46,105 nucleotides of DNA from Bacteroidota bacterium (GTDB taxonomy: Bacteria; Bacteroidota; Bacteroidia; NS11-12g; UBA955): assembly GCA_013205405.1 (NCBI GenBank), contig JABMMZ010000022.1, positions 1-46,105 on the forward strand. Reading direction: 5' to 3'. Within the stretch, counting starts at the first letter, position 1, and the number at the start of each line of letters is the position of its first letter. Below are positions 38,951 through 42,817 of the stretch, one piece after another. A program made the translations under genes and the position numbers. The notes under the pieces are model-generated. The model was not told the DNA's origin. It made no database searches and saw only the letters and a program-made list of their open reading frames with translations.

Positions 38951-39023
38951 GGACTCGTGGCTTAATGGATATAGCACTTGACTACGGATCAAGAGGTTGG
39001 GGGTTCGACTCCCTCCGAGTTCA
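38951..39023 (+). tRNA. tRNA-Arg (anticodon ACG)
   Basis: Acceptor GGACTCG/CGAGTTC; anticodon stem CTTGA/TCAAG with loop CTACGGA; T-arm GGGGG-TTCGACT-CCCTC; CCA not encoded. Confidence 0.95.
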
Positions 39024-39029
39024 CTAATT

Positions 39030-41102: not shown

Positions 41103-42817
41103 TTGGAAAATTTTATAGTATCTGCCCGTAAGTACCGCCCCTCAATATTTAACGATGTTGTAGGACAAGCACATATTACAGGTACTCTTTTAAATGAAAT
41201 AAATAGCGGGCATTTAGCACAAGCATTTTTATTTACAGGCCCTAGAGGTGTGGGTAAAACCACCTGTGCGCGTATTTTGGCTAAAGTTATCAATCAAAAG
41301 GAAGGCGATAACCCAGATATGGATTATGCTTTTAATATTTTTGAATTAGATGCGGCAAGTAATAATTCTGTAGAGGATATTAGAGCTTTAAATGAACAAG
41401 TAAGAATTCCACCACAGGTTGGTAGTTATAAAGTTTACATAATAGATGAGGTTCATATGCTTTCTACACAAGCTTTTAATGCTTTTTTAAAAACATTAGA
41501 AGAGCCACCAAAGTATGCCATTTTTATTTTAGCAACTACCGAGAAACATAAAATATTACCAACTATATTATCACGTTGTCAAATCTTTAATTTTAAACGA
41601 ATACAAATTAAAGATATGGTTAATCACCTTAAAACTATTGCTGAAAAAGAGAATATTGAGGTTGACAATGAATCATTACACCTAATTGCCGAAAAAGCAG
41701 ATGGTGGATTAAGAGATTGTTTGTCACTATTTGATCAAATGGCAAGTTTTTGTAGCGGTAAAATTACATATGAAAAAGCAGTTGAAAATCTTAATATTTT
41801 AGATAGAGATTATTATTTTAAAATAACAGATTCATTGCTGAATCAGAATATTGCAGAGGTGCTTAATCATTTTGATGAAATTACAAACAAAGGATTTGAA
41901 GGTCAATTATTTTTGAATGGCTTAAGCGAGCATTTTAGAAATTTAATGGTTTGCAAAAACTCTGAAACCGTGCATTTATTAGATGTTGGAGAAAATCATA
42001 AGGTGAAATATGACGAGCAAAGTAAATTGGTAGATTTATCATTTCTTTTAAATGGATTGAATATTAATAATCAATTTGATATTGAATATAAAAATAGCAG
42101 AAACCAACGCTTGCATATTGAATTGGCACTAATGAAATTATGCCACATACGCAGCATGCTAAATAATGCTACAACCTTAGAGGAATTAAAAAAAAAAGTG
42201 ATGAATATATAGCAGCTAAACTGCTTGCTAAAAATACTAAATCAATTCCAGTAGTTTCTAAGCATTTATTAAAAGAAGAGACGTTAGCTGATTCAAACTT
42301 TTCATTACCTAAATTACCCAAAAAAGAGACCTTACCTCCCATATTACCTGCAATTCAATTGGCTATTGCAGAGATTATAGAACACTCGGATGAAATGGCC
42401 TTAGAAGAGGAATTAGTTGCAATGGAAGTGGCCGATGAAGATTATAAAGTAGACGCAAAAATATTTCCTACACTTACCTTAGAAAATGCTAAAATTGCAC
42501 TAACAGAATTTTCAGATAAACAAACTCCTGCTTTAAAAACACTGCTTAAAATGGTAGATTTTGAAATAGAAGGGAATAACCTAGTAGTAAAGCTCTCTTT
42601 GCAGCAAATGGAAATGACAGATAAAATAAAAGTAGAATGGCAATCTTTTTTACGTCAATATTTTAATTTAAAAAATTTATTCCTTTTAATAAAAGAAAGT
42701 GAAGATGAAATAACCACCCGCAAAGCATACACAGCAAGAGAACAATTGGATGAAATGTTAATAGAGAATCCTGAATTAATGAGTTTTATTCAGAAATTTA
42801 ATTTGAAGTTAAAATAA
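41103..42817 (+). CDS. dnaX: DNA polymerase III subunit gamma/tau; frame 0 ends at 42212 (369 aa), continuation in the -1 frame from the A10 tract to 42817 (about 571 aa)
   Basis: VSARKYRPSIFNDVVGQAHITGTL, FTGPRGVGKTTCARILA, FELDAASNNSVEDIR, IIDEVHMLSTQAFNAFLKTLEEPP. The -1 frame is open from the A-run: KSDEYIAAKLLAKNTKSIPVV...MAIAEIIEHSDEMALEEEL...FNLKLK. Confidence 0.92.

Follow-up and report, generated by a model that had tools for sequence, protein, structure and literature searches.

The dnaX locus and its reading frames

The window, that is the whole stretch of DNA analysed (46,105 nucleotides, contig JABMMZ010000022.1 of a Bacteroidota bacterium), carries on its forward strand a dnaX gene whose coding information is divided between two reading frames. 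The frame-0 open reading frame (41103 to 42212) starts at a TTG codon and encodes a gamma-like product of 369 residues, consisting of the clamp-loader core followed by a tail of eight codons, with an N-terminus reading MENFIVSARKYRP.... The position matching this TTG showed no in-frame ATG. The clamp-loader core and domain III were both recognised (dnaX_nterm match, 4e-117), and the core aligned with the 614-residue gamma/tau model PRK14971 (4.9e-180) and with the E. coli gamma/tau structures (2.7e-56).

Where the core ends there is a run of ten A residues (42188 to 42197, forward strand), the candidate slippage site, across which the frame-0 codons are TTA AAA AAA AAA GTG ATG AAT ATA TAG, the TAG stop at 42210 to 42212 ending the gamma-like product. 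The +1 frame, which would be read from transcripts with nine or twelve A residues, is closed by a TGA located 1 nt past the run (42199 to 42201), a stop that is conserved in the genus. The -1 frame remains open from the run up to a TAA at 42815 to 42817, and the resulting extension (42188 to 42817, stop included) terminates in a conserved C-terminal tau domain of about 116 residues (42467 to 42814) bearing the motif YT..EQL...NP...F.LKLK. The original prediction had placed the run and the frame-0 stop at exactly these positions and had described a -1 frame open to 42817 giving about 571 residues; both readings were confirmed. Translation of hypothetical transcripts returned products of 369, 365 and 366 residues for A10, A9 and A12 respectively, and of 571 and 570 residues for A11 and A8. 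The predicted C-terminus of gamma is KKKVMNI, and the predicted peptide across the tau junction is KKKSDEYIAAK.

The core of the window DnaX (41270 to 41345) is devoid of the four-cysteine zinc module of E. coli gamma (CARILAKVINQKEGDNPDMDYAFNIF). This module was absent in all the genes read from families f1, f2, f5 and f6, kept in f3, f4 and Sphingobacteriaceae, and mixed in f10, a patchy distribution that probably reflects more than one loss. Since whole families of Bacteroidota are without it, its absence is no ground for excluding the identification of the gene as dnaX.

The dnaX A10 is the sole run of nine or more A or T residues within the roughly 42 kb of coding sequence in the window, and sense runs of at least nine A residues occur once against about 5.3 expected from synonymous resampling. 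This rarity fits selection against long A or T runs in the coding sequence of the window, with dnaX as the exception. By the same resampling, runs of at least eight A residues numbered 8 against 13.4 expected, and runs of at least eight T residues 2 against 6.5. When 22 distinct genomic runs of ten or more A residues were read, the one in dnaX was the only one joining two long open reading frames lying in different frames. The window also holds a tRNA-Arg gene with anticodon ACG (38951 to 39024).

Conservation of the junction and of the tau extension

The alignment of dnaX genes from close relatives, proposed in the original prediction as a check, was carried out on 14 other assemblies of the same genus that contain the dnaX core; two further assemblies gave no match to the core. 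All 14 genes carry the A10 run at codon 361 in an identical phase, thus 15 out of 15 when the window is included, and a frame-0 TAA or TAG is found at the identical codon in each of the 14. In 13 of them no stop interrupts the -1 frame for about another 200 codons, the exception being L013, a fragmented metagenome-assembled genome (MAG) estimated as 82% complete, in which a stop occurs 26 nt past the run.

The extension behaves as a protein-coding sequence in the -1 frame. Over 91 pairs its pN/pS value was 0.53, compared with 0.96 and 1.28 for the two wrong frames, and in two close pairs dN/dS ranged from 0.02 to 0.08. It aligned with the tau C-termini of relatives having an uninterrupted dnaX (hhalign, 1.1e-12 and 5e-14) and matched the end of PRK14971 (positions 478 to 613 of 614, 2.5e-5). 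On the strength of these sequence comparisons, the tau-specific C-terminal region is present and encoded in the -1 frame. The structure model of the extension showed pLDDT block means of 70 to 96 over residues 91 to 205, i.e., the last 115 residues or so. A sequence search of the tail against solved structures gave no match, and a Foldseek search of the model against the PDB returned nothing below 1e-3; the match ranked second by Foldseek was 4tps_D, an entry of SirA together with domain I of DnaA, whose TM-score on the target was 0.65, which is no more than suggestive.

The survey was then considered at the level of the phylum. A total of 283 Bacteroidota dnaX genes, taken at order, class and phylum level and from named genomes, were classified and reduced to one representative per genus (115). 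A run of at least nine A residues was found at the end of the clamp-loader core in 99 of these 115 representatives (A10 in 71 genera, A9 in 21, A11 in 6 and A12 in 1); some of the 16 representatives without a run are truncated contigs. The remaining sequence of the same dnaX genes (175 kb) contains only five such runs, and its lysine codons are 71% AAA and 29% AAG, while AAG interruptions are not present in the junction run, whose 9 to 12 A residues are kept unbroken. Family f13 (L244, L249, L254 and L256) has an uninterrupted dnaX and no run of six or more A residues in the junction window.

The frame holding the tau extension differs among genera, being frame 0 in 72 of them (e.g., Pedobacter and Solitalea) and -1 in 27. 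In two genomes of one further genus (L203 and L204, f6/g30), an extension with the tau motif lies in the +1 frame; here the run is A10 and a frame-0 TAG follows immediately 3' of it.

Proposed transcriptional slippage and its alternatives

The layout of the open reading frames and their conservation support the proposal made from the window sequence that frame 0 encodes the gamma-like product and the -1 frame encodes tau, which could then be made only by slippage. Our main reading, to which we assign a probability of about 0.8, is that the window dnaX is one gene producing two clamp-loader proteins via programmed transcriptional slippage. RNA polymerase would slip on the A10 run, generating a mixture of mRNAs that differ in their number of A residues. 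Transcripts carrying A10 (or 9 or 12) would meet a stop a few codons past the core and give gamma, of 365 to 369 residues, while those carrying A11 (or 8) would be read from the core into the -1 frame and yield tau, of 570 to 571 residues, whose C-terminal domain would presumably tether the polymerase and the helicase, as in other bacteria. We infer that the polymerase and not the ribosome slips, and the same standing applies to any gamma:tau ratio and to the functions of the two products.

Several lines of evidence favour slippage by the polymerase. The first concerns the third frame, which closes early in addition to the frame that ends the short product; a -1 ribosomal shift would never enter it, but a polymerase adding or dropping A residues would, and its closure therefore points to transcriptional slippage. 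In genera with tau in frame 0 the +1 frame meets a stop within 20 nt in 86% of cases (p = 1.6e-15) and in genera with tau in -1 in 85% (p = 1.5e-10), against 34-45% in the null, p-values that treat genera as independent although they are not fully so. As stops occur in the window in both non-tau frames within 15 nt past the run, every wrong-frame transcript from it would yield a clean gamma. Second, the +1 location of tau in some relatives is one from which a -1 ribosomal shift could not produce it. Third, the run is kept long and uninterrupted although seven bases suffice for -1 shifting.

Programmed -1 ribosomal frameshifting on A_AAA_AAA, by which tau would be made from the unaltered A10 mRNA, is an unlikely explanation but one that deserves consideration. 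The A_AAA_AAA heptamer lies in frame within the A10 run, E. coli dnaX itself uses ribosomal shifting, and a 2016 review assigns the reversed type of gene to ribosomal frameshifting (PMC5009743). Moreover, tRNA-Lys(UUU) was the only lysine tRNA found in a 99% complete relative, the same situation as in E. coli; tRNA-Lys content was accordingly dropped as a support for transcriptional slippage, UUU alone having been found. Ribosomal shifting nevertheless leaves unexplained the unbroken run of 9 to 12 A residues without AAG interruptions, the closed third frame and the relatives with tau in +1.

The stimulatory elements expected for a ribosomal shift were also considered. The hairpin suggested by the original prediction (42211 to 42225) is indeed present in the window, but it is not conserved as a stimulator, all five of its pairs being retained in 1 of 14 same-genus sequences and four of five in one other. 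Similarly, the purine stretch AGAGGA occurs upstream of the run (42179 to 42184) as had been described, but it does not appear to be kept as a Shine-Dalgarno (SD)-like motif; upstream SD-like matches of five or more amounted to 6% versus 3% in the null, a weak excess. As Bacteroidia ribosomes do not recognise SD sequences (PMC9976891), an upstream stimulator of the E. coli type is not expected to work. Downstream folding z-scores averaged about -0.4, a measure with little power since the E. coli cassette itself scored -0.3, and an Rfam scan of the locus gave no match. The lack of a conserved stem-loop and of an expected SD function also speaks against the ribosomal mechanism.

A homopolymer sequencing or assembly error concealing a single continuous dnaX, raised in the original prediction as a true run length of A11 or A8, is very improbable. 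The window derives from a MAG of 123 contigs that is 84% complete, and homopolymers are error-prone; yet it agrees with the 14 same-genus genes and with a further 26 genera whose tau lies in -1, and both other frames have conserved stops as well. The error was rejected on the basis of genus-wide conservation and of purifying selection on the extension, which contradict it.

Phase variation, in which the length of the run in the DNA would differ from cell to cell and switch tau on and off, is equally hard to credit. Replication slippage readily occurs at poly-A tracts, but neither run length nor polarity varies within the genus, polarity is clustered on the DnaX tree, and DnaX is expected to be essential.

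The possibility that the extension is a separate protein, translated from a start in the -1 frame or by re-initiation past the frame-0 stop, can be practically dismissed, given that, although a mechanical open reading frame begins at TTG 42359, no start-like codon is positionally common to the 14 relatives, the first one occurs 15 to 129 codons into the tail, and relatives with tau in frame 0 encode this tail as a continuation of the core.

Known recoding systems and changes of polarity

The reversed polarity of the window gene is already known. A 2013 study describes two-ORF dnaX genes in which tau depends on recoding, 17 in number and drawn from 12 genera, of which nine carry ten A residues, and its authors suggested transcriptional realignment for the A10 two-ORF type (PMC3711429); two-ORF dnaX genes needing recoding are also mentioned in the 2016 review (PMC5009743). 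The window dnaX belongs to this kind: in the GeneTack dnaX cluster, too, the gamma ORF is in frame 0, the stop lies just past the poly-A and tau is in -1, and no difference from the cluster emerged for the window gene itself (PMC3711429). The extent of the two data sets is different, the 17 genes of 12 genera given there comparing with 99 genera and with tau in 0, -1 or +1 in the present survey.

In Thermus thermophilus, as outlined in PMC1088944 and PMC5009743, dnaX undergoes transcriptional slippage at A9 with tau in frame 0. The Thermus and window genes share a run of at least nine A residues at the end of the core and nearby stops in both other frames; in Thermus, slippage on a run of nine gives the second product, gamma, whereas in the window it would be required for tau. 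The -1 ribosomal frameshift of E. coli dnaX is established, according to the same two sources (PMC1088944, PMC5009743). As in the window, one gene specifies gamma and tau with a shared core, and the shift falls at lysine codons. E. coli dnaX differs in relying on A_AAA_AAG, in having an SD-like element with a stem-loop, and in encoding tau in frame 0. In the window, tau is in -1, GTG is the first frame-0 codon past the run and A_AAA_AAA takes the place of the A_AAA_AAG heptamer; a conserved stem-loop was not found, and SD-like matches showed the weak excess given above. Shigella mxiE, described in PMC1088944 as a case of transcriptional slippage on a run of U residues, resembles the window in that its longer product needs homopolymer slippage, but the gene is unrelated and the slippery residues are U. 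In a literature search covering few subscription papers and the main text of PMC3711429, we did not find a description of the phylum-wide conservation of the site and its repeated flips, or of the +1 tau case and the closed third frame of dnaX.

The polarity of the gene was mapped on a tree of 167 DnaX core sequences. At least 14 changes are needed once sequences lacking a run are excluded, and for the state with tau in -1 at least nine changes are forced by well-supported branches. Polarity labels are strongly clustered, with 26 changes over all states compared with 58.9 in shuffles, indicating that polarity is heritable and not noise. L197 (f3/g42) has A9 and tau in -1, and its sisters L180 and L187 have A10 and tau in frame 0; L197 is either a natural polarity reversal by one base or an error in that single genome.

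A one-frame annotation would record dnaX genes of this type as a short gamma accompanied by an orphan ORF, or as a pseudogene, despite the presence of a conserved tau. The finding also raises the question of how polymerase slippage persists in a central replication gene while coding runs of nine or more A residues look depleted elsewhere. Bacteroidota dnaX constitutes a phylum-wide natural experiment, in which the same slippage site is found with tau in 0, -1 or +1 among related species, and allows a direct test of whether the tau:gamma ratio follows from polarity or the frame is made irrelevant by slippage. Extensive slippage would give a similar share of tau transcripts from any DNA frame and so leave polarity free to flip. 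We tentatively propose, at somewhat below even odds, that slippage into all frames is so efficient in Bacteroidota dnaX that the DNA frame hardly matters and the tau frame drifts nearly neutrally. If this is true, tau:gamma ratios are predicted to be similar across species with tau in 0, -1 and +1, and dnaX would represent an ancient and central gene without selection on the continuity of its reading frame.
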